From contig JARUPZ010000036.1 of the NCBI GenBank assembly GCA_031213475.1, positions 62,001-126,000 of the forward strand: 64,000 nt of DNA. The letters are read 5' to 3'. Source of the DNA: Nereocystis luetkeana (lineage: Eukaryota; Sar; Phaeophyceae; Laminariales; Laminariaceae). This document shows, piece by piece, positions 1-64,000 of this stretch (positions within the stretch are counted from its first letter, which is position 1; every line of letters begins with the position of its first letter). The notes under the pieces were generated by a model. The model saw only the letters and a list, made by a program, of their open reading frames with translations, ran no database searches and had not been told where the DNA came from. The position numbers and the translations under genes were made by a program.

Positions 1-341
1 TCTCTTAGATTTTGCTTTCATTTTTCTTCTTTTTCTTTTTCGACTTGTCTACCTTGTTTTTGTTTTCTCTTTGATTGTTTCTTTTCGTTTCACTATTTCA
101 TAGATTGCGTATGTCGTGCCTGTCGTATCTAGTATGATGACATGGCTTTGCATTGCCCACTGCAGTTCACACTGCACACGTGGCAACGTAGTATCTCTGT
201 GGCGTAGCTTTGTGACCACAGAACTTGTATCTCTTCTAGGATGGAAGAATCGGCACGGACACTGGTTGTGCTGGATGTCGACGGGTAGAAAGAACGGTTT
301 AATGTGAAGAACACACACACACACACACATACATACATACC
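1..341 (+). mobile_element. LINE-A 3' UTR copy, cut by the window edge
   Basis: This matches the end of the LINE-A 3' UTR described for 8863-9742. It includes the block GTATGATGACATGGC and the conserved end GGTTTAATGTGAAGAAC, and closes in a (CA)n tail followed by short ACAT repeats. Only the last ~340 bases of the element are visible, so its 5' extent is unknown. Confidence 0.85.
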
Positions 342-762
342 TGACCTGGTACACGCTTTGACTGAAACCAAGCGACTACCGTAGGTTTAGTGTGGAACAC
401 TCGGCCCTACATCGTTGACAGCGCACGTTTTGCGTCTCGCTTGATGACAGGGCACCTGACATCTTTTTGGGCCACACCATTATATGCTGGTTTGTGGTGT
501 GTCCGTGAGTTGAGTGGTCTCTGTTCTATTCGTCGTGTGTAGTGGGTTCTCCTGCTTGCGGCTACTACTGCTTGCTGTGGCAGTGCTTACCATAAAAATG
601 AAGCCCAGCCATACAGCAGCTACTAATAGCTAGCTGCTGATCATCAACTCCATCCAGCACCTTTTGTGCTAAAACAACTAAAGGTGGTGGTGCGGAGCAA
701 ATTCATATTTTCCAGGATTGAGGTGATGAAAATACGAAAATATGTCTTCAGCAGTCATCAGC
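342..762. other. Unassigned spacer
   Basis: This stretch lies between two LINE-A copies. I see no repeat shared with the rest of the window, no convincing coding frame and no RNA gene. Confidence 0.5.
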
Positions 763-1765
763 AGTGTGTGTCTGTTCTTCACATTAAACCGTTCTTTCTA
801 CCCGTCGACATCCAGCACAACCAGTGTCCGTGCCGATTCTTCAATCCTAGAAGAGTTACAAGTTCTGTGGTCACAAAGCTACGCCACAGAGATACTACGT
901 TGCCACGTGTGCAGTATTCTTCTTCTTTGCTCATCCCATTTATTATCTTCGCCCATCTTCTTCTCTCTCTCCTTCCGACTCGTAACTCAGATCCGGGGTC
1001 ACATAACAGGCTCTTCTCCCCCCTTCCCGCTACGGTACGTGCCTTCATTTTTATCGCGAGAAGATTTCAGCCTTTTCTTCCCTCGTCGACTCGCATCGAA
1101 TTGTGCCTACCCACGCTGCAAGGCGCTCTCAACAATTGAATCCTTTTTATTTTGGCAAATCAAGTCAAAGTCCGACCCACCTGGGGCCCGAACCCAGGAC
1201 TCAAACAAGTAGAATTCGAGGTTAACCACTTGAACCACCGGGGCGACCGGCTGCACTGCAGTGGGTAATGCAAAGTCATGTCATCATACTAGATACGAAA
1301 AAGTCGGAAGAGAAAAAGAAAAAAAATGAAAGCAAAATCAAGGAGAAATAATCTGTCGTGTTCCCCCCCGGCAGCCGAGGTGGCCAACACTTGAAAAAGA
1401 ACGAGCTGGAAAAAAAAAGAAAAAAAAAGAAGAAACACCACTGCTTGTAAACATAGTAAGACAAAGAACCAAGGAAAAAAATAACGAGGAAAAATAACCA
1501 AGGGGAAATAACAGGCAGACCAAAGCCCAAAGCACCTTCCAGGTGGCGGCAGCAGTTTGTGGTACGAGTAGTATAGCCAGGCTCTCCCTGCTAATCCACC
1601 TGGTACCTTGCTACCCAGACTGTCGCCTCCGCCTTGCGATCGTCAACTATGCCCAGCCCCTTGGCGTCAGACAATACGAAACGAGCAGAGCAAGTTCGTC
1701 ATCCAACCACGCCACACGGCTCCTTCAGTGCGGCTTATCAATCAGAAAAGGAAGAGAAAAAAAAT
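763..1765 (-). mobile_element. LINE-A copy (minus), split by SINE-B
   Basis: The (GT)n tail and GTTCTTCACATTAAACCG mark the 3' end of the element at the left. The homology stops at 915, resumes after the SINE at about 1255 with CACTGCAGTGGG, and runs to about 1765. It is 5' truncated and holds no reverse transcriptase sequence. Confidence 0.85.
916..1254 (-). mobile_element. SINE-B, near full length, nested in LINE-A
   Basis: On the minus strand the element begins near GCAGCCGGTCGCCCCGGTGG with a tRNA-like head. A box-A-like motif (TGGTTCAAGTGGTTAAC) and a box-B-like motif (GGGTTCGGGCCC) match an internal RNA polymerase III promoter. The anticodon-like position reads TTC, so a tRNA-Glu origin is possible. 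A non-tRNA body of about 250 bases follows. The 3' end at the left has a degraded poly(A). It sits in the LINE-A 3' UTR and points the same way as its host. Confidence 0.8.
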
Positions 1766-1918
1766 AAAGGAATTACTATCAATACTAAATTTTAGTCCAA
1801 CTCGATTTTATTTTAGTACCTGGTAGTTTTTGTGATTCGTGGTGGGAATGGATGGGAACAGACGACCACGAATGAATGTATGTATCTCGCAGGGGAAGAG
1901 GCACGTGGTGTCCGCCGG

Positions 1919-2338
1919 AGGCCATTTTTTGTTATTTCTTCTTTTTTTCAGCTCGTTCTTTTTCAAGTGTTGGCCACCTCGCCTGCGGGGGGGGGGGGCA
2001 CGACAGATTGTTTCTCTTAGATTTTGCTTTCATTTTTCTTCTTTTTCTTTTTCGATTTGTCTACCTTGTTTTTGTTTTCTCTTTGATTGTTTCTTTTCGT
2101 TTCACTATTACATAGATTGCGTATGTCGTGCCTGTCGTATCTAGTATGATGACATGGCTTTGCATTGCCCACTGCAGTACACACTGCACACGTGGCAACG
2201 TAGTATCTCTGTGGCGTAGCTTTGTGACCACAGAACTTGTATCTCTTCTAGGATTGAAGAATCGGCACGGACACTGGTTGTGCTGGATGTCGACGGGTAG
2301 AAAGAACGGTTTGATGTGAAGAACACACACACACATAC
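1919..2338 (+). mobile_element. LINE-A 3' UTR copy
   Basis: This is a 5'-truncated copy of the last ~420 bases of LINE-A, from the G-run block near 1990 to the (CA)n tail at 2322-2336. It is nearly identical to the copy at the start of the window. Confidence 0.85.
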
Positions 2339-2339
2339 T

Positions 2340-2580
2340 TTCGCGGGAGAGATTTTATCGGCGGGACGGGACGGTATGTGACGACGGTCAGGGATTTCGT
2401 CGGCGGGACGGGACGGCGGGACCATTTTGACGGCGGTTTTACCGTCCCGTCCCGTCCCGCCGTTACCGCCGTTAGCGTCCCGCCGATATACCGTGATAAG
2501 CCTTGAATATTTCCGTTGTTTCTGCCGTCTTGCCGTATAAGTCAACCATCCGACCCGACCCCTAACCCTAACCCGGACGC
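2340..2580. repeat. GGGACGG minisatellite with a telomere-like end
   Basis: Degenerate repeats of GGCGGGACGGGACGG run from about 2355. They invert near 2450 into CCGTCCCGTCCCG, so the block can fold back on itself. It closes at about 2558-2577 with CCCTAACCCTAACCC, the TTAGGG-type telomere repeat read on the other strand. Confidence 0.75.
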
Positions 2581-3307
2581 TATGGAGTGACCAGTGCTTG
2601 GATGCTCTGGCTTGTGAAATATCTAATAATCCTCGTAGGCTGATTCGGCCGGCTTATTATTCTGTTCAAGGAAAGGCCATGATTTCGTCGGCTCAGGATG
2701 TTGTGGCTTGGAAAACTTAATATTAATATCAATACCAGGTAGGTTTTGTTGGGCCGCTCACAAAACACCCCTTCTCCTATTCTATCAGAGTGCGTAAATA
2801 GCCACCTTGAGAAGATCCACCATCTTAGGGCAACCACTATTTATTGCTAGGTTTTCTCTCCCTCAATATTTTCCTTTGACTATGTTTTTCGTTTCTTGTT
2901 TTTTCCGAAGAATGTCCATGTCGTTCCTGACGAAGCATTGTATTGTCCACTCTTCTCCGATATTCCCGTTCGGCTTCGTTGGCAAGTCTGAAGATGGAAC
3001 ATGAGAATAGAATCGCTATTTTTCTATTATTATAGCCCAATAAACCCGACGCAAGGTTGCACAAAGCAGACCATCTCACGACACACTACCGCACTACCGC
3101 CTCCGCTAGACTCGCTATAACTTGTGTCAGAGAGGGAGATACGGAGGATACACGGTGTCAAGGGCAACCGCGATTATAGGGCTCGCGACACTGCTGGGTG
3201 TGACCGTGAGCCCCGCGTAAGTTAAGTGCGAGTTAGGTGTCGTTTTATGTGGGGGCTAAAACAAAGAATCTCAAAAAGCAGCCGTCCCAGCTTTTTTCAT
3301 GAATTTG
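2581..3307. other. Unassigned, contains one dispersed duplicated segment
   Basis: No gene is recognised. Bases 3040-3215 are homologous, in reverse complement, to 16970-17131. Within the shared part, 3127-3213 on the plus strand reads as a short open peptide beginning RGRYGGYTVSRATAIIGLAT. The other copy encodes a similar peptide on the minus strand. The conservation may be of a coding fragment or only of a repeat. Confidence 0.35.
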
Positions 3308-4212
3308 TGGGTGTGTTCTTCACACCGTTCTTTCTACCAGTCGACATCAGCAAAACCAGTGCCCGTACCGATTCTTCATGCTAAAAGAGATACAAGTTGT
3401 GTGGTGGCAAAGCTACGCCACATACATACATACTATGTTGCCACGTACCAGTACGCAGTAAGCACAGTAACAGTAGTAGTAGGCAATGCAATGCCATGTC
3501 ATCAGGACGGCATACACATTCTATTAAATAGAGAAACGAAAGGAAGCAATCAAAGAGAATTCAAAAACAAAAACAAAGACAAATCGAAAGAGAAGAAAAA
3601 AATGGAAGAAAAAACAGAAATAATAGAAGAAACAAACTGTCATGCCCCCCCCCCAGAGGCGAGGTGGCTAACACTTGAAAAACAACGAGCTGGAAAAAAA
3701 AATGGACCCAAACACCACTACCTGGTACTTGTAAACAGAGTAAGACAAAGAACCAAGAAGAGGGAAATAACAAATAATGGGAGAAAACAGGCAGACCAAA
3801 ACCCAAAACACCCTTCAAGGTAGCGGCAGATGTGTGTGGTACGAGTCGTAGTGTAGCAAGGTTCTCCCCGCTAGTCCGCCTGGTACCTTGCTACCCAGAC
3901 TGTCGTCTCCGCCCTGCGTTCGTCAACTATGTCCAGCCCCTTGGTATCAGACAATACGAAACAAGTAGAGCAGGTTCGTCATCCACCCACGCCACACGAC
4001 TCCTTCAATACGGCTTACCAGGTATCAATCGAAAAATGGAATCGAAAAACGGAGAATCAGCGCAAGAAAGAAGAAAAAAAAACGAAAGGAGAAGACAAGG
4101 GAAGATATCACCACGTTCGAACCAGCTGCACCAGTTGGTGGCACTAGTAGGATAGTCGTTCTACTTCCTACTCGGCCTGGTACCTTCCTACCCTGTCTGG
4201 TATCTCCTTCCT
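3308..4212 (-). mobile_element. LINE-A copy reaching into the RT gene end
   Basis: The copy begins with the (GT)n tail and runs the full 3' UTR. It continues past 4130 into sequence matching the reverse complement of the RT stop region at 8820-8900. It is one of the most diverged copies. It carries a clean 7-base insertion at 4016-4024 (TACCAGGTA where other copies have TA), plus TACCTGGTA near 3718. Confidence 0.85.
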
Positions 4213-5553
4213 TTTTTGGGGCTGGCTGGAACGACTGACATCCTCAGAACTACATGGACTATGCTGCGGTCGTAGTTACTCCGCAGTGCGCGTCGGCGTG
4301 CTACCGGCTGCCCTCTGCTGCTTTAGGGGACTAGACGAAATTTGAGCGTCTTACAAATTACACAAACATTCTACAAATATTGCCACATACCAGGTACCAG
4401 GTACATACCTGGTAGGTTTTAATATAAACTTTTTATTGTGGAAGGTTTCAGGTCATTCATGTACTACTCGTATTATTGGTGGGTTAGAATCCCACGGGGG
4501 TGACCAATGTTGTACCTGTGCTCGTCGTTCGTGCCGATGTAGTCGCGGGGGCGTCACAGTGTAGAAGTCGCGCAAAAGTCGCCGTGATGAGATCGCGAAG
4601 CGAGAGTCCCTTGCAGCCGTCGTTACGGCTGGCGTAAGCCGAGCTGAGTCCTTCGTTGATATTAAGCAAGGAGATGCTAAAGGAGCTAGCTACTAATAGT
4701 CTGACTCGGTGGGGAGGAATTTTGTCACCCCAGTCTGCGGCGGATTATCTCCCGATAGCTATCTCCTGAGGACGGGTCAACACCGTTTATGACGTGAGAC
4801 CGCTTATGATCCGAGATTTGATATTGCCTCGCCGGTTACGTGTCATTCGCGCGTGCGTATTACGATATCTACAATATCTCCCACCCCGACTTTCCCATTT
4901 ATTTTGGCACCGTTCTACCCGGTAGAATTTCGATGTGCCAAAACTAGGGCGTTTTGTGGCCTATTTCGTCAAAAAGAAGTATTCGCACAACCCAAGGCAA
5001 TCCGCTCGCAAAACGTTTTTTTGACACAAATTTGAAAACATCCAAGCGGTGCCTCATTCGGTCGTTCTGAATATATATCGCAAATCGACTATTATTATTC
5101 AACTAAAGTACGGCCTTGATTTTATTTTAAATTATTTTTGGTGTTTTTGGCTTGAATAATCTTGATTATTTGATTATAATCATCTGGTCGTGATTACACA
5201 AAGAAAACAAAAATTGATAGATTAATCATGATTATATATAGAGAAATAAATGGAAGGCGTTATCATGCCGAGATATTATTTGAGGCGCCTACGACACCAC
5301 GGCACCCGACCCGAGGGCACAACAACGCATCCAGCACGCAGTTGATGTGAGCAGCTAAGCCAGGGCAGCCGTGCCTTCTGCAATCGAGCTGCGTCACTTG
5401 GAGTCACGAAGAAAGTCGGCAGGCGCACAGCAGTGAGTGGCGCTGAGGCCCGCAGCAGTGTCGGCGAGAGCCACTTACTTGTTGTTGGTTGTAGGAACTA
5501 CCTCACTATGTTTTTTTTTGTACTTGGGATCAACACGTTGTTGCGCACTGCTT
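4213..5553. other. Unassigned spacer
   Basis: No gene is recognised. Three TACCWGGTA motifs cluster at 4386-4415. An AT-rich stretch at 5085-5245 holds AATCATGATTA-type palindromes that recur at 10020-10110 and 11350-11405. A 61-codon open frame at 4484-4669 on the minus strand has no family I recognise. Confidence 0.4.
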
Positions 5554-5848: not shown

Positions 5849-6183
5849 TCTGGGCATCAGCCATTGGCCAAACCCCATATATATATATCCACGGTGTGCG
5901 TACCCAATACCGGTGTACTGTGGGCCTAACTACGTACGTACCAGGTATATACCAGGTATAAAATACTAGAATACCTGGTAGATCAATTACATAGGTCTGC
6001 AAGGCTGTCCATCTATTATCCATATTGCTTATTGTAACTACCTGGTATTCAAGTAGGTTTGCAAGGGTATTGATACATACCTTTCTATATTGAAATAAAT
6101 AGGTACCAGGTACCTGGTAGTACGTATCGACCGACAGATTTTTGCATCCCTATCCTAGAAATTCAGTAGCCTTTTTTTGCACC
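5849..6183. repeat. Cluster of TACCWGGTA motifs
   Basis: No gene is seen. Six exact TACCAGGTA/TACCTGGTA motifs lie between 5937 and 6125, some sharing their TA ends. This is the densest cluster in the window. Confidence 0.7.
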
Positions 6184-9742: not shown

Positions 9743-9754
9743 CCTGGTACCTGG

Positions 9755-9906
9755 TACGTGGCGTAGTATCTCTGTGGCGTAGCTATATGACCACAGATTC
9801 TAGAACTAGTATTTCTTTTAGGATTGAAGAATCGGCACGGACACTGGTTGTGCTGGATGTCGAGGGGTAGAAAGAACGGTTTAATGTGAAGAACACACAC
9901 ACATAG
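9755..9906 (+). mobile_element. Short LINE-A 3' end
   Basis: A 150-base copy of the last part of LINE-A, ending in (CA)n at 9894-9904. It lies directly after another LINE-A tail, separated by two CCTGGTA motifs. Confidence 0.8.
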
Positions 9907-11343: not shown

Positions 11344-11349
11344 CATTTG

Positions 11350-11577: not shown

Positions 11578-11697
11578 TACAGAAGAAGAAGGTGTTGTGT
11601 AGCCTGTCCTGTATCCACAGCAGACTGGATTATGACGATAGAATTTATTTATGGTACAACAACAATCAAATTGAAAATAGACATATCTTCTCGTCCC

Positions 11698-11724: not shown

Positions 11725-11760
11725 ATAACAAAAGAGAGTATCAATATTATTATTTATTTC

Positions 11761-11839: not shown

Positions 11840-12163
11840 TGCCGGCGTCCCCGTTGGCTTGGTAAGTGGTCCGCGTGCCTATCACGATCGAGTGCATGCT
11901 CGTACTCGTAGGGACTTTTTCTTGCACAAAATATTGAGTATATATAGCGAAAAGTGCGAGAGCGTGAGTTAGCTACATTCGACGAAAGTCGATGAGCAGT
12001 GGGAATGCTCAACCCTATGCGCGACAAAAAAAAGGGGGTGTACCGGGGGTGAGAAGGGACGACACCTACCTGTGACCACGGCTTGTAAATGTCCAGAAGA
12101 TCGCCAAGGGTAAAACCTCCTACGAGTTTTAGGCTGGAAAAATTAAGTGACGTTGAAAAAAAT
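11840..12163 (+). mobile_element. SINE-A copy
   Basis: Aligns along its length with 10910-11250. It has lost about 25 bases around the box-B region, so its internal promoter is probably dead. It ends in an A-rich stretch followed by TACCAGGTA. Confidence 0.75.
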
Positions 12164-12267
12164 ACCAGGTAAATACCAAAAAAAATGTCTGGTCTGTGGT
12201 TTTTTTGGGAGGAACTTGGTTGTGTCTTTTGGTGTGTTTTAACAAAACGACCCAAACCCATGCACTT

Positions 12268-13989: not shown

Positions 13990-14092
13990 GGATGATGACA
14001 TGGCATATATGTGGCATTGCATTGCCAACTGCTGTGCTTACTGCATACCAGGTACCTGGTACGTGGCAACGTATTAATAGTATCTCTCTGTG
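13990..14092 (+). mobile_element. LINE-A continuation beyond element D
   Basis: Resumes the copy interrupted at 13055. It carries two TA micro-insertions relative to 18895-18930: TACCAGGTACCTGGTA at 14046-14061 and TATTAATA at 14072-14079. Confidence 0.75.
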
Positions 14093-20340: not shown

Positions 20341-21069
20341 ATATGTGTGTGTGTTCTTCACATGAAACCGTTCTTTCTACCCGTCGATATCCAGCACATT
20401 GTCAACTAATGTCCGTGCCGATTCTTCAATCCTAGATGAGATAAAAGTTACGTGGTCACAAAGCTAAGCCACAGAGATACTACGTTGCCACCTACCAGGT
20501 ATGCAGTAAGCACAGCAGTGGGCAATGCAATGCCATGTCATCAGGCGCGACATACACATTCTATGAAATAGGGGAACGAAAGGAAACAATCAAAGAGAAA
20601 ACAAAAACAAAGTAGACAAATCCAAAGAGAGAGAAAAAAATGAAAACAAAAACTCGAAGAAACAATCAGTCGTGCCCCCCCCCCTCAGGCGAGGTGGCCA
20701 ACACTTGAAAAAGAGCGAGCTGGAAAAAAAGAAAAAAAAAAGAAAAAACACCATTGCTTGTAAACAGAGTAAGACAAAGAACCAAGGAAACAAAATAACA
20801 AAGAAAGGGAAAATAACAGGCAGACCAAAGCCCAAAGCACGCTCCAGGTGGCGGCAGCAGTTTGTGGTACGAGTAGTACAGCCAGGTTCCCCCTGCTAAT
20901 CCGCCTGGGACCTTGCTACCCAGACTGCCCTATCCGCCCTGCGTTCGTCAACTATGTCGCTACCCAGACTGCCCTATCCGCCCTGGGTTCGTCAACTATG
21001 TCCAAGCTCCTTGGCGTCAGACAATACGAAACGAGCAGAGCAGGTTCGTCATCCAACCACGCCACACGA
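20341..21069 (-). mobile_element. LINE-A 3' UTR copy (minus)
   Basis: (GT)n at the left, full 3' UTR to about 21069. It carries TACCAGGTA at 20493-20501 and a ~48-base tandem duplication around 20920-21000 (TACCCAGACTGCCCTATCCG twice). Confidence 0.85.
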
Positions 21070-21700
21070 CATATATATATGTGTGTGTTTATACGTCTCA
21101 CAAGTCTCGACTAAACCGCAAGGTACTGCTGTACCAGGTAGTCTTGAAGAGGAGCCAGCAGTCACCACCCGTTGATATACGTACAGCCCGAATCACAACG
21201 GGTGTGGGCATTCAACCGACAAACGAAAAAACCCTGGTTTTCGTTGTTGGTCAACCCCAGCGTCGCGTGCGGTACGGGTATTCTCGGAACAACGTTGGCC
21301 AGGAAACTCGGAGTTACCTCTGGACAACGCGGTTTGACGTACAGGTTAAAGGTGAGTGCGATCAGGTACCACATGTACTACTCTACCTAATGCGGCGGTC
21401 GCAGCCGGCGGTTGTTTCTTGGGTCGTGGCTTACTGTTCTTACTCTCAGCCTCGTACGCCGCCCGCCCCTCTCGCGACCGCGTTATTAGTATTTCGTCGG
21501 TTTTGCCGTTCCTCTTTCGTTGGCTCGTGGCCATTCACAGCCTAAAGCTGCAACAACAGCAGTAACAGCAGTACACAGCGATAGTGTCCAGGACGGGATG
21601 GGGATAGTTCTCCAACAGGACCGTCACCTACCCTATTCAACATGTGCTCGAGGACAGATCAGTGGTCGGTCTTTCACTCTCTTCAAGCCTTCCTCTCCCC
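21070..21700. other. Unassigned, with one dispersed protein-like block
   Basis: On the minus strand about 21437-21510 encodes SREGRAAYEAE. The same peptide is encoded on the plus strand at about 45000-45045 (ARWSREGRAAYEAERE). The surrounding sequence is not shared beyond about 60 bases. I do not recognise the family. Confidence 0.4.
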
Positions 21701-21793: not shown

Positions 21794-22679
21794 GGAAGAA
21801 ACAAGCAATCACTGAAGCTGTTCAACTATCCGCCTCCACCTCGGTACCACTGCATCGCCCGAGACTTACTTGTCAATGTGTCCAGTCATCTACGTACTTC
21901 AACGACCATACTTTTTACAATGAATGGACATATATCCTGCTATTTTAGCTCTCCCAACCATATGTACGTAGGATAATTAAGCCTATCTGTGGCCTCAGCA
22001 TTTTGTTTTGGCATCAACGATTGGAGATCATAGACGTGAACCGCGAGGATAGGCGAGGGAGGGCGGCCGACAACGACTTCGACGACCCCGATTCGGCGGC
22101 GGAGTAACTCACGGCCACTCCAGGTAGGTGCTACACCTAGTGTGGGGAAACACTTCTTTCTGGTGGTACACAAACTAAAGTTGGGGGGAGGCGCTGTTTG
22201 CCAACATCATACACGAAGCCCAAGTGACCTTTGATTTTTGTTTTGCAGCGGAACCCAGCACTTGGTTTTGCACGCAAGACCCCGCTGAAACTTATTGATA
22301 GCAATTCCCACGCAGACGTACGCCGAACGATCTCTCGGTCTGGAGACATGATTCGATCAGCAGGAGGGGGGTGTGTCTCCTCTTTATGATCAGCAAAGAA
22401 GGGTATATTATTATCACTGCTGAGGTCCAAGAACACGCACGAGCACCAGTAGACGGGCTTTGGCGGGTCTTTGGAGCTGTTTCAGGCAGGGCGGGCGGAT
22501 GCAGTGTGCGCGTTTGTATCGGGTAGAAATATGTACCTGGTATACATGTATTTGTCAAATGTTCGTACTTTTGACAACTTTTCTCTTCGTACGAAGACTT
22601 TTCGGCAAAACACCAGGTATTCGGACTATTAATAGTTAATAGTGTGGGATATCGAAACAAGAAAGGTTTCGGTACGACA
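21794..22679. other. Unassigned spacer
   Basis: No recognisable gene. Open frames of up to 167 codons are present (22292-22795 minus), but they show no known motif and overlap simple sequence. Confidence 0.35.
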
Positions 22680-34930: not shown

Positions 34931-35380
34931 ATATACTGGTACTGGGTACCATAGGCTCCACTGAAAGCCGCTTTCCCTCTACGCAACTCATGGCACGCCT
35001 CGTCGATGCCTCTCGCTTAGGCGTAATCTTCCGATTACGGAAGGGTTCCCTCAACAAGGCGGTGGTGTGTCAGAGCACTATGACCGTCCTATTGGAGGAA
35101 GCCGCTTTACTCGTGAATAAGGCGGTTGCAGCCTTGGTGAGGGTGTGGGATTCCCTCAGTAACACGGTCGCCTCCTAAGTAAGGAACATGCATCATATTG
35201 ATGTGTTGTAGCCAGCAGTATACCAGGTAATAGCTATTAAAATATCAGAGCGCTGCCCCACGAAGGCATGCCGCAGGTGACGACGAACAACAACGGGCAT
35301 GAGCTCCATCGTGGGCACCGAGCGTAGACGCATACCCGATATGATTGAAGACGTTGGAATTGATTAGGCCTGCTCGAGGT
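34931..35380. other. Unassigned spacer
   Basis: Two blocks resemble each other (GGAAGCCGCTTTACTCGTG and AAAGCCGCTTTCCCTCTACG), but no gene is recognised. Confidence 0.3.
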
Positions 35381-39875: not shown

Positions 39876-40047
39876 TGAGCACGAGTAACCGTACCATGAT
39901 CTGTCATATCATAACTTCATGCCGAGGACAGATCTGCATATATATTTCGGCCTGGCGGACCCTCACACGAGGGATGGAATCCCCCGCCAGCGTAAAGCTC
40001 TGTATACGTACCTACCTTTGGTTTTCAAGCATTTTCAAATGTAATAC

Positions 40048-42480: not shown

Positions 42481-42990
42481 CTATTAATTGGAATTTTCGG
42501 GCAAGTGATGTCAACGACTGTCTAGCAATTGAAGGTGTTTAGACAATTGATCTTGAATACCGTCTATTAATTGGATTTGTTCGGGACAATCGATATCTGG
42601 TACCTGGTACACTCCAACAATTGGAATTGTCCGGACAAATAATTTTGGAGACTCTGTATCAATTGAAATTGCCCTGACAATTGATTTGAGAGACTGCCTA
42701 TAAATTGGCATTGTCTGGACAATTTGTGTTTGGTGCTTTAAAAAAAATAGGATTGTCCAGACATATGATCTCGGAGACTGCCTATTGATTGGAATTGTGC
42801 TGACAAATGATTTCACAGGCTGTCTATTAATTGGAATTGCTTTAACTATTGATTTCGTTATTTACATGACTTGGACTTGTCGAGGTAACTGCTTTGAGAG
42901 ACCGCCCATTAATTGGAATTGTCCGGATAATTGGTGCCGGAAGCGACCTACTAATTGGAACTGTCATGATTATCGAGTTTAAGAGGGCTG
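42481..42990 (-). repeat. ~56-bp minisatellite, inverted block
   Basis: The same unit in reverse orientation (TGTCTATTAATTGGAATTGT), about eight units. Confidence 0.85.
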
Positions 42991-43800: not shown

Positions 43801-45659
43801 ATAGACTATTGACATCCAGGGTGTGATATTTGTATTGTTGTGTTCTCTCAAATATTTATTATTAAATACCTGGTATTGTTTTACAGATTATTAGATGCTC
43901 CAAGTACAAACCCGCCCATCTGTGCCTGGTACATACTTCTGTATGTTGTATACAGCAGTATAACCTCTATGTACAATACGCGTGCGTGGGTAACCCTATT
44001 ATAGTCTTGTGCTACAGCAGCAGTAGCAGTAGCAGTAGCAGTATCATAATCGAATTGAGAGTAGTTGTGAGTACATCATAAACACACAACGCATATGATA
44101 CAACCTGTTGCTAATGCCAGGTATGCTGCGGTACCGGTACTAACAAACAACCGCAGCAAGGAGCTGGTCTTACGGTTCACCCCCACTATACATCATAACC
44201 ACAATACCACACCACCACAACCACTGCTGCTACAGCAGTACTATAACGTACTTCTACCACTACTACCTTACTCCCCTCACTACGATTATAGTAGCTGCTG
44301 TAGTATCGCCACTACTACTACCGGTACTACCGCACGTATTGCCAAACCTACAACACTGTTGTCAAACAAACAATAGTTGGGCTGCTGTACTATAGAATCA
44401 CTTGCTTAGATCTAAATCCCTGAGCGTGCTCGGTTGGTACATCGCTGGCCTCTCAGAGCTCCTACTCCGAAACCGCCTTCCTTCATTATTTGGCGGACCT
44501 TTCAAGCGGGTCTTTGTTTTCTCCATTTCTCTTGGCACCCTCGGTCCGTTCTGCCTTTTTTCTTCTTTCGTTTCGTGTGCGTGCGTGTACTCCGAGTACG
44601 GCACCGCAGGCGAGCCCGGCGCCGTCGCGGGTGTCAGCGGGTGCGGGCGGGTAAAGGGGGAGTTTCAAGAAGCATGGTCGCCGTTTTCGTGCCTAGGCGT
44701 CGCGTGTGCCTCGAGACACGAGGGATGCATGAACGGGCTCTGTCTGGCCTCCATTGGTGATTTTAGATAGAGTATGTGCGAGTTACAAAGGTCATTCGGG
44801 ATGGCAAGATAATATTCAAGCGGTGCTTATTTTAGCGACCACGCTGAAGTTGAAAGAGGGAGCTGTGTAGTTCGAGCACCAACGTTATCGAGCTGGTGAA
44901 CGACGGCCACGGTGAGCACCGGGCTTCACGCGAGGCGGGCGAAGAGGCTGATTGTGGCAGAGGGTGAGAAAATATTTACCCAGACCAAATCGGTGGCGAG
45001 GTGGTCGCGAGAGGGGCGGGCGGCGTACGAGGCTGAGAGAGAAGCTCTTCCGTTCGATTTTTTTTTCTTCTTATTTTTGACCGGGTGGAAGGGGTTCCAA
45101 TCAGGCAGAGAATTAATACTCGAGAGGGGACGGGGAAATTTTCTTCTTTCCGTTTTTTTCGGTTTCATTTTCGTTGTTTTTGCTGTGCCTCAGTGCCGTG
45201 CTGTCTGTGCTTTCTCTTTCTTCGTACAAACGAGTACAGGCATAGATCATATCGAAAGAAGAAAATAAGCACCCTACCTGGGGTATTTACGTACGTACGA
45301 CATCCGCGACGCGAAGCGTATGTGGCGTCCGAGCTGTTCATATGTGGCGTCCGAGCTGTTTTTTCCTGAAGCATGGCGGCGGGACTCTTGGCATTAAATT
45401 ATCAAATCGCCAATTTGCAAATACGATCATAAAAAAAACAATCATGGACAGAGTGTCGCATAATTTGATCTAATCTACTTTTTTCCTTCCTGAGCGAAGC
45501 GCCTTGTACCCTGTACCACTGAAACAATACCAGGTAAGTACTATTGCTCCCACTACGTACTGCTGCACCTATATCACCACCATCACGCTGCATCACGACA
45601 GTAACACCTCGACTAGACTATTAATACTACTATTACTGCGGCAGAGACGTGCACAACTA
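43801..45659. other. Unassigned, with microsatellites and one dispersed peptide block
   Basis: (CAG/TAG)n occurs at 44013-44043 and ACTACTAC-type repeats at 44200-44330. A frame at 44402-44770 (122 codons) has a Cys-rich, unrecognised product. At about 44940-45050 the plus strand reads RRAKRLIVAEGEKIF, then SVARWSREGRAAYEAERE, the latter shared with 21437-21510. These may be remnants of an unrecognised mobile gene. Confidence 0.35.
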
Positions 45660-47739: not shown

Positions 47740-48195
47740 GATTACACGTTTGTTTTGTTTTTCTTTGTTTTCCTTCGTTTCTCTATTTCATAGAATGTGT
47801 GTGCCGTGCCTGTCGTATCCAGTACGATGATGACATGGCTTTGCACTGTCTACTATTAATATTAATATTTATACTGCTGTGCTTACTGCATACCGTACCT
47901 GGTGTACCGTAGCGGGAAGGGGGGAAAAGAGCCTGCTATGTGACCCCGGATCTGAGTTACGAGTTGGAAGGAGAGAGAGAAGAAGATGTGCGAAGATAAT
48001 GAATGGGATGGAAAAAAAAAAAAAAAAAAAAAAAAAACTGGTACGTGGCAACTTAGTATCTATCTACCTGGTATGTATGCGGCGTGGTTTTGTGACCACA
48101 GCACTTGTACTGCTGTATCCCTCTAGGATTGAAGATTCGGCACTAGGGCACTGGTTGTGCAGAATGTCGACGGGTAGAGAGAACGATTTAATGTC
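47740..48195 (+). mobile_element. LINE-A 3' UTR copy, split by SINE-B
   Basis: LINE-A homology runs from 47740 to about 47895 and resumes at 48042 through 48195. The copy is full of TA-flanked insertions: TATTAATATTAATA near 47851, TACCTGGTA at 48065-48073, TACTGCTGTA at 48108-48117. Confidence 0.8.
47906..48037 (+). mobile_element. SINE-B, 5'-truncated, with poly(A)
   Basis: The last ~105 bases of SINE-B (GTAGCGGGAAGGGGGGAAAA to GAATGGGATGG) followed by a run of 26 A at 48012-48037. It is inserted in LINE-A in the same orientation, within about 15 bases of the site used by the copy at 916-1254. The long pure poly(A) suggests a recent insertion. Confidence 0.85.
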
Positions 48196-49560: not shown

Positions 49561-49877
49561 TTAAGAAGCTGTTTTTTTATTATTTTCCTACTGCTGTACA
49601 GTATAATAGGGCTCCAGGACCAGTGTGTGATCACGGACTCCTTGATTTAATACCTGGTAGTTAATAAAGCGAAAACAACGACAACAACAACAAACAACAA
49701 CTCAACTCAACATTATTTCACCGCCTACGACCACGACCACCCTTCCTTTCACTCGTCCCAACCACGCAACAACCACCCGACAGGATTCGCGCACCAATGC
49801 ACAAAGACGAAGACACAATCGACGGCGTGGTTCATGCAGGAACTGAGACAGCAGCAGCAGTCAATGAATATGACCAT
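49561..49877. other. Unassigned spacer
   Basis: AAC-rich stretch at 49675-49710. No gene. Confidence 0.35.
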
Positions 49878-51304: not shown

Positions 51305-52554
51305 TTTGTACTACCTGGTAATATCTATTAATCATATATAGACAGCGTGATGCCCAATCATAACTTCATCATAGTATTGCCTATAATACCAACTTGTGTT
51401 AAAATCTATACCTCACGTACTTCAAAATCAACTTTTTCAAGCTTCCTTCATGCACCAACGTAAAATAAAATGCATCTACGAGGTATCTCTCTCATACTCC
51501 GAAATCACCTTTTGCAAGCTGCCTTCTTGCAACGTTCCAAGATATTGTCCTTTGCGACGTCATCTTCGAAACACGCATGTGTTCCTGCCCTCCTGCGCTT
51601 TGAGCATCCGGTCCTCGTCATCTACCGCCGCTTCACCCGAAGTCCATCGAAATGAGAGTATTTCGAGCTACCGAGGGGGATACGCAATCCTCTCTGTCTT
51701 ATTTTGTACACTACATACGCCGCGCTGTGGACTACTACTGCAGACAACAAAGTAGTACCTTCCTCTATAAGCTCTGTACTACACCAAATTTCAAATCATC
51801 CTCCTTATCTCCTTCTACCGCATCACACTGCTGTACATACACAATCATGCACGCTTGACACGAGACGGTATCTGTGTGTCCCGCCGCGTTATTGGTCGAG
51901 ATCGTACTTTGCCGTTACGTACCGAAAACCCGCCGCAATTTGTATTAATCAGCCAACCGACTTCACCTCCCGTCTAGAGAAGATGAGGAGCGACGCTCGC
52001 TACACCGCATTGTTGGTGGCCCGTGGCGATGATGATGAGTTTCGGCGCGAAGACCTTGCCCCGAGCAAAGGCAACTCAATTGCATACAGCAGCAGCGGAA
52101 GGGAGAAGCCTGCCTGCAGCACCTGTGGTGAGACAACACAAACCGCCTACACGGTGCGAAAGACGTTGGCTCTCCTAGCCGGAGCGGATGTATGACGAGT
52201 ATGCGCGGTTCGTTTATCATCCTCCGTCGGTTCACGTTTGCTCGTGCCGGCTTCGTTTGATCCCCGTCGAGTTTTACCACTCGGCTTGACGCTGCTACTG
52301 CTGCTGCTGCTGCTGCGTCTGCTCCTTCTGTTGTTTCGCCATCGTATGATGCTGTTGTTGGCACCCTGCTCGAGCTCCACTACTATTTTAATATCTGTAA
52401 TAATCACGATGATCCAAAACAGCTTTTCACGACGTCAAAACTCGCCCTATATCATCTGTGCAGCAGCCGGTTTGACGGTTTTTGGGGGTTGTACCGACAT
52501 CGCTCGCGGCTCGAAAGCGTTCGATTTCTCGGTATTGTATACTCGATTCGCCGA
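51305..52554. other. Unassigned, possibly with a tiny LINE trace
   Basis: The frame at 51652 begins MRVFRATEGDTQSS, reminiscent of RVFQATEG in the LINE-B protein, but the match is too short to rely on. (CTG)n occurs at 52295-52325. No gene recognised. Confidence 0.3.
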
Positions 52555-54095: not shown

Positions 54096-54500
54096 TGATC
54101 GCTCGCCGCAGTGCATGCCAACTTTCTCACGTAGCGCTCCCCAACGAGGCACGGAGTATTGTCTTCATGTTAACACTATTAATAGGTATGTATGCTGTGT
54201 ATTATTCGTGGGCCTACATCGTACTCTGCCGTTGTACAACCGTACAGAAAGCCCATACCAGGTACGTGTGTATGTACTTTAATTTCCCACCTCGTAAATC
54301 TGATCGCTCGCCGGAGGGCATGCCAACTGTCTCACGTAGCGCTCCCCAACGAGGCACGGAGTATTGTCTTCATGTCAACACTAGGTATGTATGCTGTGTA
54401 TTGTTCGTGGACCTACATCGTACTCTGCCGCTGTACAACCGTACAGAAAACCCATGCCAGGTACTCTGGTACGTATGTATGTACATTAGTTTCTAACCTT
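54096..54500. repeat. ~205-bp tandem duplication
   Basis: Two copies (54096-54299 and 54300-54500) of GATCGCTCGCCG... through CGTACAGAAARCCCAT. They are about 90% identical by eye. Two of the indels are TA-flanked: TATTAATA (54177-54184) versus TA (54382-54383), and GGTACTCTGGTACG versus GGTACG. Confidence 0.85.
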
Positions 54501-55385: not shown

Positions 55386-56655
55386 TATGGCTAGGGGTTC
55401 TGGAGCTCAGTCGTAGGTGCTACTATTAATTCAAGTAAGTACAGGTGTACTGTATCACTCGTGGTAGAAAATGTAGTGCCTTGGTCCGAAGGGTCTCTTA
55501 CTTTCGGTGGAGAATCGAAGTACGAGGTGACAGCAGTAGCAGCAGCAGTTGCACTGATGTGACCATGAAACTTGGTTACCTGCACTCTCGCAGCGAGTGC
55601 GAAGGTTCGAAGGTTCAAACGGGTCCGCAACGAAAAAAGCCGGAAAAGAGCCGAACCAGAAGTGCCACGTATGGCAATATTACACGTATGGCGTGTCATC
55701 CAGTTGTGATGGTCTCCGCATCGATCAATTAAAGATACCAGGTATTGCCAGGGGATTGTGAGTACTGAGGTACCTGGTACCAATCTTCTGTCCTCTATCT
55801 GTTGAAACATAAGTGCGTCTACGAAAGAGACTGATGAAGACTGAATTGAATAGATTGAGTGATCAAAATGAATGATACAGCCGTTGACCAAACATTGTAT
55901 ACTGCTGCGTGATGTATAAACTGTTTGTTGTACGACGTTTTGCTTTTTTGCGTTTTGTTGTCTGCTTTTGTTTTTGTTTTTGTTTTTTTGCTTCGCTTCA
56001 TCTTATTTTTTTAGTGGTTTGTCTGCTATTAATAGTAGTCTCCTTTTTGCTTGCCTGGTGTCCTTAGTGGTGGAATGCGAATGCTTGTTTTTTTGTTTTT
56101 GCCTCTGTTTTACTACCGAGGTATTTATTCCACTCCAGAGTTATTGGAGCCTGTCCTGCGACCATGCACAGACTGCATTGTATTGTGGCGATGGTGTTAA
56201 TGTGAGAACAACAACAACAAATAACAACTCAAACCTGTTACGTACCTGGTACGTGGTACGAATTATTAATCATGCACACATCATGCAGACACGACGTGTA
56301 ACACCATCCCACCTGGAAAAAATTGGAATACCGCCACACCAGCTCCTCATAGATAGAAGAGAGAGTGGGTGGATGGTCAGTCGTTAGACCTCGATATCTA
56401 CCACCTGAGATGGGCGTCATCATTGAATCAGGAGTACGTCGAACAGAAATTCGTCATCGGCATAATACCTACTCATCTTTTGCGGAGCCGCAAAAAAAAA
56501 AAAAAAAATGCCATTCTATAGTGATGATTATTAGACAGTGATTGAAGCGAAAAGCAAAACAATTAATTGTCTTATTTTGTTTTTTCGTCTGCATACTACA
56601 TGGTATTAGATAGCGCAATAAATCAATAGACAACGGACACTCCAAGACCTGCAAT
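55386..56655. other. Unassigned spacer
   Basis: A 166-codon minus frame (55391-55891) shows no known motif. Poly(A) at 56491-56508 is isolated, with no SINE body found beside it. Confidence 0.3.
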
Positions 56656-57480
56656 AATGTGTGTGTGTTCTTCACATTAAAAACCGTTTTTGCTCCACCC
56701 GTAGATATATATCCAGCACAGCCGATTCTTCAGTCCTAGCGAGATACCTGGTACAAGTTATCAAGTGGTCACAAAACTACCAGCTACGCCAAAGAGATAC
56801 CTCCTACGTTGACACGTACGTGCCAGGTAGGCAGTAAGCACCGCAATGGACATGTCTTCATACTGGATATGACAGGTACGACATACACATTCCATGAGAT
56901 AGAAAAAACGACAGAAAACAGAGGAACACATAATATTTTTTTTTTTTTTTTTTTTTGTTTTTTTTTTTTTTTTGTTTTTTTTTCCATCCCATTCATTATC
57001 TTCGCACATCTTCTTCTCTCTCTCCTTCCAACTCGTAACTCAGATCCGGGGTCACATAGCAGGCTCTTCTCCCCCCTTCCCGCTACGGTACGTGCCTTCA
57101 TTTTTATCGCGAGAAGATTTCAGCCTTTTCTTCCCTCGTCGACTCGCATCGAATTGTGCCTACCCACGCTGCAAGGCGCTCTCAACAATTGAATCCCTTT
57201 TTTTATTTTTGCAAATAAAGTCAAAGTCCGACCCTCCTAGGGCTCGAACCCAGGACTCAAACAAGTAGAATTCGAGGTTAACCACTTGAACCACCGGGGC
57301 GACCGGCTGCATACTCGTGAATAAAAAACAAATCGAAAGAGAATATACTCGTGAATAAAAAACAAATCGAAAGAGAAAAAAAAAAAACTGTCGGGCCTGC
57401 CCGCAGGGGGCAGGGGAAGTGGCAGAGTCTTGTCTTGAAAGAACGAACAAGAAAAGAATGAGCAAGAGTAGGAATAGACA
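56656..57480 (-). mobile_element. LINE-A copy (minus), split by SINE-B
   Basis: (GT)n at 56658, LINE-A homology to 56935, then SINE-B, then LINE-A again from about 57313 with a duplicated 42-base segment (ATACTCGTGAATAAAAAACA twice). Confidence 0.8.
56936..57311 (-). mobile_element. SINE-B, complete, nested in LINE-A
   Basis: The most complete copy. A T-rich tail at 56936-56984 is the poly(A) on the minus strand. The body follows, and a tRNA-like head ends at GACCGGCTGCA (57301-57311). Box B reads GGGTTCGAGCCCTAGG, better than in the first copy. It has the same orientation as its LINE-A host. Confidence 0.85.
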
Positions 57481-58509
57481 GCAAAATAATGAACGTACCG
57501 CAATGGATGAAGGGGTACCGATTGTTGATAATTAATATTAATAGCATGATTATACCTGGTATCGTATACCGGTATACTGGTACAATACTATTCTGCTTGC
57601 CATCCGACAATGTGCAATGTGCAGCATGAGCTACAACGAACGTTGATCACTGGTAAATCTAATTTACTGGTTTGTCCCCAAAACGGGACTGCGGTCTTGG
57701 TTCTGAAAAAGAAACCCCCGGAAACAATGGAAAGCAATGCCTATGCACACGGTCTATATATACCTTTCATGTCTAGCCCCTCGTACTTCATTATATTATA
57801 GTCGTCGATAACATATATATACCGTACCTATTACATGCATACATCGATGTGCTCGTTCATCATGTCCCCAATTTATGTTCGGGCAGCAGACTTCGATAGT
57901 CCCTCGATGAAGGCTATCGTCACCGACAATCGAAGATGTCCGGAGACATGTCAAGCAACCCAAAATGTCCGCTATCAAGGATGTAGGGCCGACTACTGTT
58001 ACACACTAAACTAGCAGTTTGGAGTCGGTCAAGGCATGTCGAGGCAAAGTTGCTGTTTGTGTCAAGGGGTGAAAGTGCTTGTCTCCTGACATATCTGCCG
58101 GCACGTGTGTGTCTGCTGTGAGTTCCTGACATTTGGCCGTTCTCTTTATACAACGCAGCTCCCCGAGGGAGGCACGACCCAGCGATCATACAAAACGATG
58201 GGAATAGGGAGAGCGTGACAGACGCCTTCAAGTGGTCAAACTCTCAACTACTGGGTGGGTGGTTCTTCTACTTTATTACTGAGTTCCAACCACAGCAGTC
58301 TTGGACCAAATATTATGGAATGTTATTTCTGGGCTCCAGGAACTGCGTTTTGAGCCCTTTTTTACTCGGCTAGACAGCCAAAAACAACATAGGTAAGTAA
58401 CCTCCTCAGAATGCTCCCCGAAGTTTTCCGGGAGATTACTGGAACAGGTTTCCGTTTCTCTTAGGTTGAGTTTTGGAGAAGCCAATAAGCTCTCTTTGTG
58501 GAGGCTCAA
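57481..58509. other. Spacer with MITE-P remnant and short dispersed repeat
   Basis: 57598-57655 resembles 11761-11818 (GCCATCCGACAATGTGC). 57667-57700 matches the right half of MITE-P (GTCCCCAAAACGGGACTGCG). The rest has no recognised gene. Confidence 0.5.
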
Positions 58510-60080: not shown

Positions 60081-61254
60081 GCCCCCCCTGCTCGGTAGAC
60101 GACAAAGCACTCATCATTAAAAAGTTGCGATGTCATTACGACTCAAAAATACCTCAACCATGAAATAAAAAGAAACAAACTCACGTCCAAACCCCCCACA
60201 ACCCCACCTCTCAACCTCCGTCTCCTACTCCCTACAATATGGATGCGACGCTTGTCTTCCGCGCGGCTCCATGTTGCCGCGACATGGACTACATCTCGCA
60301 AAGCCGCAGGGTGCAGTGGGCAGTATCGGGTGGGTCAGCGTCAGAAATCAAGCCAGTTCGTGCCAGAAACCGAGGTTACTCGTTAGATAACGAGTCACAT
60401 CATTATGCACTATGTCTACGAGTAGAATCATGCCCTCAAACCCCCCCTCACGATTTCACTCAAAACAATAGTGACAAGACAACGTCAGTGCCGATTTATA
60501 TTCATAGTCAGTTGGTCTTCCTCATATTCAAGTGGGTAATTGGCAACGCAGGTACGTCCGTTTTGCCATTTCAAATCGCGGCCTGGGTAGACACAGCAGT
60601 ATGGAATCAGGTAGCAGACGTGGTACGGTTCCCTCATACCCTCTGGTTAATATACGGGACCGTAGACAGCAGCTGCGGTGGAAATGCTTCTGTCGTGAAA
60701 GAAATACCTGGTACCAGGTACCAGGTACACCACACCTTCCGCAATATTGCACACTTCATTTGAGAACATACCAGGCAAATACAAAGAAAGCACAGAAAAG
60801 GACAAACAAAAAAGGACGAACAAAAAGATGCAGTCCACCAAACCTAAAGTGGGCGACACTGGAAAAACATTACATGCCTGTTTCCTACCAGGGGTCGAAC
60901 GGGAAATCTCGCTTGCCGCTGCTGCAGCCGCTGCTAGTCCCCGCCCCCTCGTAATCCCCGTCTCCCAATCCGCCATTATACCCCCCCCAAACCGAGCCAG
61001 ATCCGTATTCCCAGCCACTCGGTGCCAGCCTCGCCCATGTGAGTTTTCCCCGGTCGAAGGGGTATGTTGACCCCCCCTTCTGACCGGAGTTGCGCACCTC
61101 GGACACAGCAACACCAAGCTCCACCACCTCAGGCCCAGCATAACCAAGGCCCACCACCTCGGACACAGTAACACCAAGCTTCACGACCTCAGGCTCAGCA
61201 TCACCAAGGCCCACCACCTCGGACGCAGTAACACCAAGCTTCACGACCTCAGGC
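60081..61254. other. Copia interior, unrecognised
   Basis: No pol motif found on the minus strand. A 174-codon plus frame (60239-60763) has no known motif. At 61120-61270 a ~60-base unit (CCACCTCGGACRCAGTAACA) repeats about three times and on the minus strand gives EVVKLGVTVSEVVGLG-type repeats. Three TACCWGGTA motifs overlap at 60703-60727. Confidence 0.45.
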
Positions 61255-61959: not shown

Positions 61960-61967
61960 CGATATCG

Positions 61968-62375
61968 TGTTTGATCACAGGAGCTGTCGGACGCGGGCAC
62001 GTGATACACGCGTGGTCTACACCATGATCGTTGAGGAAGAGCAAATAAAATACTAGTTACAATGAGCCAAACACAACACACACCAGGTGGATCAATACCG
62101 TTCTGTCAGAGACCCCACCACATAAACCACACACAGGAGGTAAGCCGCGCCAAGATTGTCACCGGCTGCACCACTCACATGTAGACAGGCAGTAGTATCA
62201 TTATCATCAAAGCCTGGCCGTATCATTAACATCAGAGACTGCTCCTGGAGGAGCAGCTCCATCCTTCCATCCAAGAGGCATACTAAATAATGCCCCGATA
62301 CATAATACGAAACCCCACAACATATGAAACCCCAATATCCGCAGGCCCGTATCAAGCTACCGCATACTACAAACA
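61968..62375 (-). repeat. 5' LTR of the copia-type element
   Basis: 408 bases, partner of 58602-59014. LTR ends are intact. No TATA box or poly(A) signal was assigned with confidence. Confidence 0.9.
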
Positions 62376-62850
62376 CGTCCTGATTCCTTATCCTAGAGAG
62401 ATACTGCTTCTGTGGCCACAGACTGAGACCGCGAAAACTAAAAAGTAATCCCAAATTCAAGTGCCAAGCAAGTGAAATACCAGCGTACCGGGTACGATAA
62501 CACAACACAACACAAGCAAGACCAGAAAAATAAGGACAAAAAGACAATAAAACAAAAACCAAAAATCTGAAATGAAACAGAATACAAACGACGCAAGGAC
62601 TTCAGAAAGGCTGCCAGACGGAAAGCGTATGTACTCAGGAAGGACAGATATCTGCTGCACGGACGAAGCAACACGAAGGAGGGGGAGGCACAGGCAGGCA
62701 AACGTCTGTAAGAGCTAGTCGAACCGATACCTAGCCACCCGATCTATCATTTCGTTTCTGCATTCGTCGACAGCTGTATCAGTACGGCTACCCTTTCCCC
62801 CTCCCCCCCTCTCCTTGTCGCCTTTCTTGGCGTCCTCAGCTGCGTGGCGT
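62376..62850 (-). mobile_element. LINE-B, right part after the copia insertion
   Basis: Resumes LINE-B at CGTCCTGATTCC and continues through the 3' UTR (CCAGCGTACCGGGTACG) to the C-terminal end of the RT frame. There the minus strand reads TAVDECRNEMIDRVARYRFD-like residues at 62715-62790. Homology to 40048-40450 ends near 62850. Confidence 0.8.
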
Positions 62851-63134
62851 TTCTCAGAAATGGGGTCAGAAATAAGGAATGTTTGAATATTTTTGGTGAA
62901 CAATCGTGATATGTCCTCAGAACCGGCAGACCCTAAGACCTATCTATGCCAATGGGACAGCGAAGTTTGAATTTCAAAGATACCCGCCAAATTTTTCAGA
63001 ACACGCTTCCTATGGGCCACGTAAAAAAAAAAAAGTTCCTTACTTTTGGAAAAGCCCAAGAAAAGCAAATCTGGGGCCGATGTGTTGGGCCGATGTTGGG
63101 CCAGCATCGGCTTGAGAAAACCTCAGGCCGATCT
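62851..63134. other. Unassigned spacer
   Basis: A short direct repeat GGGCCGATGTTGGGCC lies near 63090. CCTCAGGCCGAT resembles the right end of the pogo-like elements (18830, 47200) but without the terminal repeat. Confidence 0.35.
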
Positions 63135-63232
63135 TTAACCCTTTTAGAACCGCAGTCCCGTTTTGGGGACGAACTACTTAGAATTTTAGTGGTTTGTCCC
63201 CACAGTGGGAAGTGCGGTGCTAAAGGGGTTAA
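63135..63232 (-). mobile_element. MITE-P copy
   Basis: TTAA on both sides (63135-63138, 63229-63232). The central asymmetric part is inverted relative to the other copies, so this copy is in the opposite orientation. Confidence 0.8.
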
Positions 63233-64000
63233 GGTTCGAAGTGGCGAGATTCCGAGACCGCGACAGACATCGATCAACAAAACCAACGATTGCGTCATGA
63301 ATTCTGAACGGAGTGCGCTCGTTAGGGGCTCCGACCCACGCTAGGGTCACCGTCTTCACGTCATGGCCGGTGTCATGTGGCGGGAGCTGACCAGGCGCAT
63401 GATAAAAAAAACATTTGGGCGCTGGTTTGTACAAAACAGAAGACAGAACTTCTCCATCCGTCTCGAATGGCAAAAAATAGACTTTTTTTCAGGTTTGGGA
63501 GGATACCGTAGGACGCCGCCGGCAAGCTCTCGCCCCCTAGACAATGGATTCACCTGATATTTTCGGGGCCGTCCTCTAAATTCGTTGGCCTTGCCAGATA
63601 CCGAGCGGGTTGGCCGTGGGCTGAGTCTATGTCGAGATCGAGCGTCGATCGTCGCACGAGCTGGTTTCGATCACCGTGTTGACAAATTGCAACCAGAAAA
63701 ACACAAATAACAGACAAATCGGAAAAATGGGAACGAAGCCTAAAAAAATGAGAACCAAGCCGTATCTCCAGAAGAACCATGTATGTGGTGTATCAGAGAA
63801 CCAAAATGATCCTGCGAAACCCCTTGGCCAGCCCTGTGAGAGGAGCTCGTCAGAACGGTCATGCTCCATCTCGTGCCTTCGGGTGGGCGCAAAAAGCGAT
63901 ATACGCTGGCTCTATTGTGATTTCTCTAGATAGATGCTGGCTACCGCGGCGATGCCGAGGACTTCCAGCCTGAGCGACAGCTCATTCGAAGGCTGCTGTA
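63233..64000. other. Unassigned end of window
   Basis: A minus frame (63186-63473) reads PHDTGHDVKTVTLAWVGAPN before reaching the MITE-P. It is open but not recognised. MITE-P sits at its downstream end, so an interrupted gene is possible. Nothing else stands out. Confidence 0.3.

Follow-up and report, generated by a model that had tools for sequence, protein, structure and literature searches.

The 9-mer TACCWGGTA raises the question of why one short word is present so often in a 64,000 nt stretch of DNA from the brown alga Nereocystis luetkeana (the window, C36:62001-126000 of a 465,085,209-base genome). The window has 41 exact copies (TACCTGGTA/TACCAGGTA), compared with a mean of 0.43 and a maximum of 2 in 100 shuffles; a first-pass annotation made from the letters alone had counted about 40 against about 0.5 in random sequence, which is confirmed. 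The excess extends to the whole genome, with 182,395 copies (91,155 + 91,240) against 1,744 (883 + 861) for the control word read backwards. TACCTGGTA and TACCAGGTA are reverse complements of one 9-mer, so the "W" centre gives no evidence for two different sequences. The flanks of the 41 window copies have no common word outside the 9-mer. As judged from sequence comparisons, the 9-mer is probably the excision footprint (referred to here as a scar) of a family of TA-targeting, inverted-repeat transposons with CCA ends, CCASTCTG, where S is C or G.

The first property that bears on the origin of the 9-mer is its polarity, i.e., whether it is gained or lost at a TA. Comparisons were made in a nuclear sample of 280,154 bases consisting of the window and 33 loci, with seven low-GC, overlapping or near-duplicate loci excluded; six of the loci (L001-L004, L007 and L008) were picked because they hold TACCTGGTA/TACCAGGTA, and eleven because of a transposase match. 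There are 109 distinct scar sites in the sample. Nine have a repeat relative that can be aligned across the site, and relatives without the insert are present at all nine, four of which (L002:1501 and window 14046, 14053 and 56745) depend on a single relative; a relative that carries the insert was found at none of the 109. At eight of the nine sites at least one empty relative has exactly TA. The scar at 3719..3727 (+ strand) is the exception, in that its six relatives without the insert have TG (5) or TT (1), and the earlier proposal that a plain TA stands in place of the motif therefore applies to all of the comparable sites but this one. The other comparable sites in the window are 4016..4024 (-), with two plain-TA relatives; 20493..20501 (-), with eight relatives without the insert (3 TA, 5 TG); 56745..56753 (+), with one plain-TA relative; and 14046..14054 (-) and 14053..14061 (+), two scars in opposite orientation that have a TA in common and one plain-TA relative each. 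The positions given in the first-pass annotation are correct: GGCTTACCAGGTATCAATC is at 4012-4030 and GGCTTATCAATC at 1732-1743, and the copy at 20493-20501 and the double copy at 14046-14061 are as given, the latter compared with a plain TA at 18915-18916.

Direct alignments display a clean 7-bp gain at L023:5741, L023:8038, window 4016 and window 20493, as well as a double gain of 14 bp in L008. Two of these, L023:8038 and the double insert in L008, are cases seen by eye that the strict relative filter overlooked. Seven palindromic control words of like shape have the opposite property, with empty relatives at 0 of 21 sites and filled relatives at 10. On these alignments the 9-mer is a derived insertion and not an ancestral part of the repeats. 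One-mismatch neighbours of the 9-mer, with the centre excluded, show 70 transitions among 128 changes, with transversions leading at positions 4 and 6. Such a spectrum would reflect decay by point mutation and scars of mixed age, and decayed scars may perhaps be as many again as the intact ones.

A second property is the presence of a series of shorter variants with a definite polarity. Words were counted on both strands of the sample (palindromes are counted twice) and compared with a second-order expectation. The words of a CCA-end series are in excess: TACCAGGTA 109 (expected 2.6), TACCGGTA 36 (9.0), TACCAGTA 23 (9.3), TACCATGGTA 4 (0.5), TACCGTA 58 (37.7) and TACCATA 44 (34.2). Words that would mark CCT ends are not: TACCTAGGTA 0 (0.4), TACCTGTA 6 (12.3) and TACCTTA 11 (21.3). 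The word TACCAGGGTA has the same polarity, with 10 copies (expected 0.47) and 1 of TACCTGGGTA. Genome-wide there are 46,688 copies of TACCAGTA and 20,551 of TACAGGTA, with equal dinucleotide (first-order) expectations. One trimmed variant is found in the window, a TACCAGTA at 3446..3453 (+) that is short by a base at one end, with six relatives without the insert (2 TA, 4 TG). In the same relative test, empty relatives are present at 1 of 17 TACCGGTA sites, 2 of 23 TACCAGTA/TACTGGTA sites and none of 6 TACAGGTA/TACCTGTA sites. These counts support a fit of most trimmed variants to the series expected of ends that begin with CCA rather than CCT.

A search for TA-flanked inverted repeats starting with CCW reveals a candidate parent. 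An 83-bp element at L027:376-458 is a miniature inverted-repeat transposable element (MITE) of the form CCASTCTG...CAGASTGG, flanked by TA, and has relatives of 564-1173 bp. The CCAG end word TACCAGTCTGAC is present 128 times genome-wide (control 26), so that about one-fifth of these words are expected by chance, and the places listed include three head-to-head pairs, which define TA-flanked elements of 674, 564 and 1173 bp. TACCAGTCTG has 1,276 copies (control 740). The sister CCAC end TACCACTCTG is more abundant, with 5,814 copies (control 549), and three exact 83-bp head-to-head pairs are found among 100 listed places. Thirty-three CCAG loci were taken, spanning 36 of 100 listed places (of the 128). 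A matching second end is present in 12 of these 33 loci, 9 of them at 83–89 bp, and 6 of 20 CCAC loci pass the second-end filter (3 of the 20 had been chosen as pairs). In L053, L096 and L100 a single element has CCAC at one end and CCAG at the other. The TA is found on both sides of the element in L047-L049 and L100, and element-free copies of the repeat around L100 have one TA at that site, i.e., the TA is duplicated on insertion. This duplication and the terminal inverted repeats are features of the IS630-Tc1-mariner/pogo superfamily. The 83–89-bp copies are short, non-coding and repeated, and with their inverted repeats and target duplication have the properties of MITEs. Stowaway MITEs have ends of the same CTCCCTC type as grass mariner, and the CCASTCTG ends are not of this type. 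Open frames reach at most 101, 79 and 171 codons in the three larger loci, and the 171-codon frame runs through tandem repeats. In the sample, a profile of the 83-bp element detects 7 copies at E<0.01, two of which were among the sources of the profile, and in the window it detects no copy at E<0.05. Within the 1173-bp CCAG element, 27-bp units repeated in tandem at L049:899-1223 include part of the element's own inverted-repeat end.

The flanks of these elements can be compared with those of the scars. Of 218 scar flanks, 26 resemble a scar (426 of 29,674 in the background), and a first flank profile was inflated because neighbouring scars sit in the flanks. A strong A at -6, initially a candidate for the main target mark, is weaker once the neighbouring scars are removed from the profile. 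In the cleaned flanks T is rare at -1 (0.08, background 0.19), and A at -7 (0.43 vs 0.25), A at -6 (0.40 vs 0.24) and T at -8 (0.39 vs 0.25) are enriched. A weight matrix was built from scar flanks with scar-like neighbours excluded. The CCAG set has 37 flanks: each of the 12 two-ended elements contributes both of its flanks, and the rest come from 13 of 21 one-ended loci picked by the appearance of the end. The matrix gives z scores of 7.0 for held-out scars, 4.9 for CCAG-element flanks (30 used) and 4.5 for CCAC-element flanks (25 of 26 used), and of the trimmed words TACCGGTA scores 3.0 and TACCAGTA/TACTGGTA 4.6. Two other families that reside at TA fit poorly, the TTACGGGG MITE with -0.5 (24 flanks) and CAGT pogo-like ends with -0.6 (9 flanks), as do the words TATTAATA (-1.0), TACWGTA (0.6) and TACAGGTA (-0.9). 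The scores support the view that flanks of CCASTCTG elements match the target preference of the scars and that those of the two other TA-element families do not.

Elements and scars also occupy the same position in a common repeat. An unrelated MITE of about 105 bp, TA-flanked with ends TTACGGGGGACC, has 21 matches in the sample, some of them partial, and none in the window. Within it is a TA in the context CCATAGTNAA-TA-NGACC, which is found empty 19 times in the 280-kb sample, with 5 further copies that have CA at this point; scaled up from the sample, the empty TA form would number very roughly 30,000 genome-wide. Scars at this fixed TA are found 675 times genome-wide, with 0 for the reversed control. 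In the first 46 places of a list of 100 the orientation is CCTGG in 35 and CCAGG in 11, and the presence of both orientations indicates that the 675 scars are not all descendants of a single scarred MITE. At the same TA, locus L100 on contig C30 has a complete 83-bp element with one CCAC and one CCAG end and TA on each side, and L051 has a CCAG end. These two loci are all of the exact genome matches to the pattern of an element end at the MITE TA.

Scars are linked to one another as well as to elements. Ten pairs of scars have a TA in common, compared with 0.09 expected at that spacing; 4 are direct and 6 inverted. Random hits on TA at the genome-wide rate would produce about one such pair (1.6 neighbour events per 109 scars). 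In addition to the pair at 14046, the window has a pair in the same orientation at 4388..4396 (-) and 4395..4403 (-), a pair in opposite orientation at 6104..6112 (-) and 6111..6119 (+), and a run of three at 60705..60713 (+), 60712..60720 (-) and 60719..60727 (-), all exact 9-mers. A TA common to a CCAG element and a scar is found in 6 of 33 loci (L049, L053, L081, L086, L093 and L094). When the matrix is applied to a scar flank as a target, the flank is at the 51st-67th percentile and is not outstanding, and flank preference alone thus leaves the clustering unexplained. A rather unlikely extension is that elements have been purged nearly everywhere by very frequent or programmed excision in the life cycle and that the transposase prefers a TA adjoining one of its own scars. 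If that were true, hundreds of thousands of scars would have come from a family of few copies, with each exit seeding the next entry.

These properties can be accommodated by excision in the following manner. The family would have ends CCASTCTG adjoining TA, would consist mostly of the 83-bp MITE, and would be moved by a transposase made elsewhere, the identity of which is inferred. An element would enter a TA and duplicate it, a step that is visible in the element sequences. On exit, the cuts would leave three end bases (CCA) on each side as 3' overhangs; this 3-nt stagger is suggested by the trimming series and by the three-base stagger that a paper on Sleeping Beauty/mariner gives for excision (PMC7827188). 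Staggered cuts of 2-3 nt that leave end bases between two TAs are usual in the IS630-Tc1-mariner/pogo superfamily. End joining would then overlap the terminal A residues as an A·A mismatch, later resolved to A or T, and fill-in would produce TA-CC-W-GG-TA. Further trimming would produce TACCGGTA, TACCAGTA and like variants, and either TA of a scar could take a new element to form chained scars. The first-pass annotation had proposed a process that inserts CCWGG at TA, for example footprints left on excision by a transposon that has CC...GG ends and targets TA, and the footprint reading is supported by the insertion polarity, the CCA series, the presence of real elements and the target fit. It had offered a repair activity as the alternative; this is not needed on its own, and end joining enters as the presumed last step.

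Several observations weigh against excision of CCASTCTG elements. The A.A overlap of one base is less natural than the pairing that is open to CAG or TTA ends. In the word series, TACCTA should be a member and is not in excess (102, expected 109.2); TACGTA is in excess (250, expected 157.3) yet has no scar target preference (z 1.4); and the extra base of TACCAGGGTA is not explained cleanly by an excision model. TAGGACCTA, from a GGA control series, is also in excess (11, expected 1.0), with filled relatives at 9 of 9 sites, which marks it as a shared repeat. When compared with their own reversed controls, the order of the two genome-wide words flips, to 1.6-fold for TACCAGTA (control 29,541) and 2.6-fold for TACAGGTA (control 8,021), although these two controls differ greatly from each other and are not relied on. 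CCAC elements show no enrichment of A at -6 (6 of 26), even though the score of the whole flank fits. The count of 675 is a count of copies and not of independent events, the position common to element and scar belongs to different copies of the MITE and not to one locus, and no locus was seen with the element in one allele and the scar in the other.

Transposase searches belong with these points. An autonomous relative would be expected to encode a DDE/D transposase of the IS630-Tc1-mariner/pogo superfamily. PF13358 (DDE_3) has 0 matches with a positive control search, and PF01359 (Transposase_1) has 0 matches in a search where the control was silent too. PF03184 (DDE_1) has 28 matches; 12 loci were fetched, the ends of which, where found, are CAGT or GCACC, and none of the 12 is linked to CCASTCTG ends. 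Two of the DDE_1 matches, L037 and L038 (C34:4445281-4448513), are inverted, about 3 kb apart and 99.5% identical over 1,888 bp; they are a recent inverted duplication, and the ends of L037 are GCACCGGGGTGCG.

Of the alternatives, the one that fares best attributes the scars to another CCA-ended transposon, extinct or too rare to find, that used the same or a related transposase. The scars display just the first three end bases, and the lack of A at -6 in CCAC elements is in its favour. It is nonetheless unlikely, in that over the whole flank CCAG and CCAC elements alike fit the scar matrix where two unrelated TA families do not, and that scars share a TA with CCAG elements in the six loci given above.

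It is very unlikely that the unit of insertion is the 7 bp alone, i.e., that abortive or partial transposition joins end sequence at a TA with no full element beforehand. The ratio of 109 intact scars to 7 elements in the 280-kb sample, and the exact element end at only 2 places of the MITE site that has 675 scars, would be in keeping with such a process. A polarised trimming series, however, is what end joining at an excision gap would be expected to produce, and two other TA families appear to pair element ends with a scar type in a similar way.

The odd palindrome and its very high density might suggest a conserved TACCWGGTA binding site spread or kept by selection, but this can practically be dismissed given its absence from relatives at all nine comparable sites and the decay-like spectrum of its neighbours. 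Equally negligible is replication slippage or tandem duplication of a 7-bp unit, which runs such as TACCAGGTACCAGGTA bring to mind, but most scars are single and the inverted orientation of 6 of the 10 TA-sharing pairs refutes slippage as a general cause.

Three other candidates for the parent were rejected. A 3.1-kb TACCTGATTTTGGC structure at window 9978-13089 lies within an inverted-repeat patchwork and has ends of CCT polarity. The other two, the CAGT pogo-like elements and the MITE with TTACGGGGG ends, differ from the scars in target context. The patchwork extends over window 9850-14150 and has repeated TAACTGATTTTGGC...GCCAGGTATACCTG units.

The genome may contain parallel scar types from these other families. 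TATTAATA is over-represented in the sample (108 vs 3.0 expected, both strands), and its flanks have C at -1 (54%), A at -2 and T at -3. C is also at -1 in 17 of 24 flanks of the TTACGGGGG MITE, and a C-TA-G context is common to the two. In the relative test, TATTAATA has empty relatives at 4 of 51 sites and filled relatives at 1. TATTAATA would be a second scar type, fitting the TTACGGGGG-ended MITE of about 105 bp, which is absent from the window and common in other loci. At window 53473, 53233, 54177 and 31053, TATTAATA or its rotation is present where repeat relatives show TA. Pogo-like elements with CAGT ends are found in L029, L039 and at window 17133-18872 and 45658-47246. The two window elements are TA-flanked with ends CAGTACCGGCCCGCTAGT and are 83–93% identical in pieces to L039, which has a pogo-like DDE_1 match; their frames at 17400-18152 and 46444-46875 have no Pfam family match. 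Such elements could possibly leave TACWGTA scars. In the relative test, TACWGTA has empty relatives at 4 of 108 sites and filled relatives at 7 (4 within one tandem repeat). Both the ends and the footprint of Sleeping Beauty differ from those of the present family; its CAG-type footprint is nearer to TACWGTA, and to the pogo-like elements with CAGT ends, than to TACCWGGTA. An inverted-repeat element of about 96 bp with ends ACCCTTTTAGAACCGCAG, apparently TA-flanked, is found at window 15245-15341, 19082-19180, 21705-21794 and 63123-63233 and is possibly a further MITE family.

The mechanism of footprint formation is already known from Tc1/mariner-type transposons; the scale and the mutual clustering at TA are unusual. 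In a study of Stowaway MITEs of grasses, which are of the Tc1/mariner type, five footprints are inferred at one intron (PMC1925063), compared with one footprint type present 182,395 times in this genome. The consensus end of grass mariner is given as CTCCCTC in another report (PMC4423477), as against CCASTCTG here. In ciliates, according to a further paper, TA-bound internal eliminated sequences and MITEs are removed en masse during development, and PiggyBac excisases are for the most part described as seamless (PMC9942856). Mass removal of TA-bound MITE-like elements would be a likeness to the present genome; the differences are that ciliate elimination is developmental and PiggyBac excision mostly seamless, whereas excision here would leave a 7-bp gain. 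A search of the literature for TACCTGGTA found nothing on this subject among the titles listed, and no report of footprints on a comparable scale was found in the open-licence literature.

Footprints are usually studied locus by locus, and here about 182,000 intact footprints of a single type are present in one genome, occupying roughly 0.7% of the TA sites, which are estimated at 25 million. If the scars are what they appear to be, past cut-and-paste turnover, which is normally invisible after an element has left, becomes countable and datable, and the outcomes of end joining can be read from the sequence alone via the repair spectrum and the target preference. Counts of TA palindromes could expose similar records in other genomes.

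The remaining scars of the window are all exact 9-mers. On the + strand they are at 1817..1825, 4406..4414, 5972..5980, 6039..6047, 9748..9756, 22534..22542, 26964..26972, 37430..37438, 40045..40053, 42601..42609, 43867..43875, 48065..48073, 49651..49659, 51312..51320, 55771..55779, 56243..56251 and 57553..57561. Those on the - strand are at 2733..2741, 5939..5947, 5950..5958, 12163..12171, 21132..21140, 26916..26924, 28477..28485, 35221..35229, 45528..45536, 54256..54264 and 55736..55744.

A scan of 2.9 million viral contigs for the double scar found 6 stretches and led nowhere. An open frame of 702 codons at window 6754-8862 matches reverse transcriptase (RVT_1, E 1.5e-34). Low-GC contigs of the genome have plastid-type genes, which would fit a photosynthetic stramenopile such as a brown alga. 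The contig C700 (L027:1-488) and a stretch at C7:4396282 (L058) are identical over 488 bp, which indicates that at least one small contig repeats a stretch of a chromosome.

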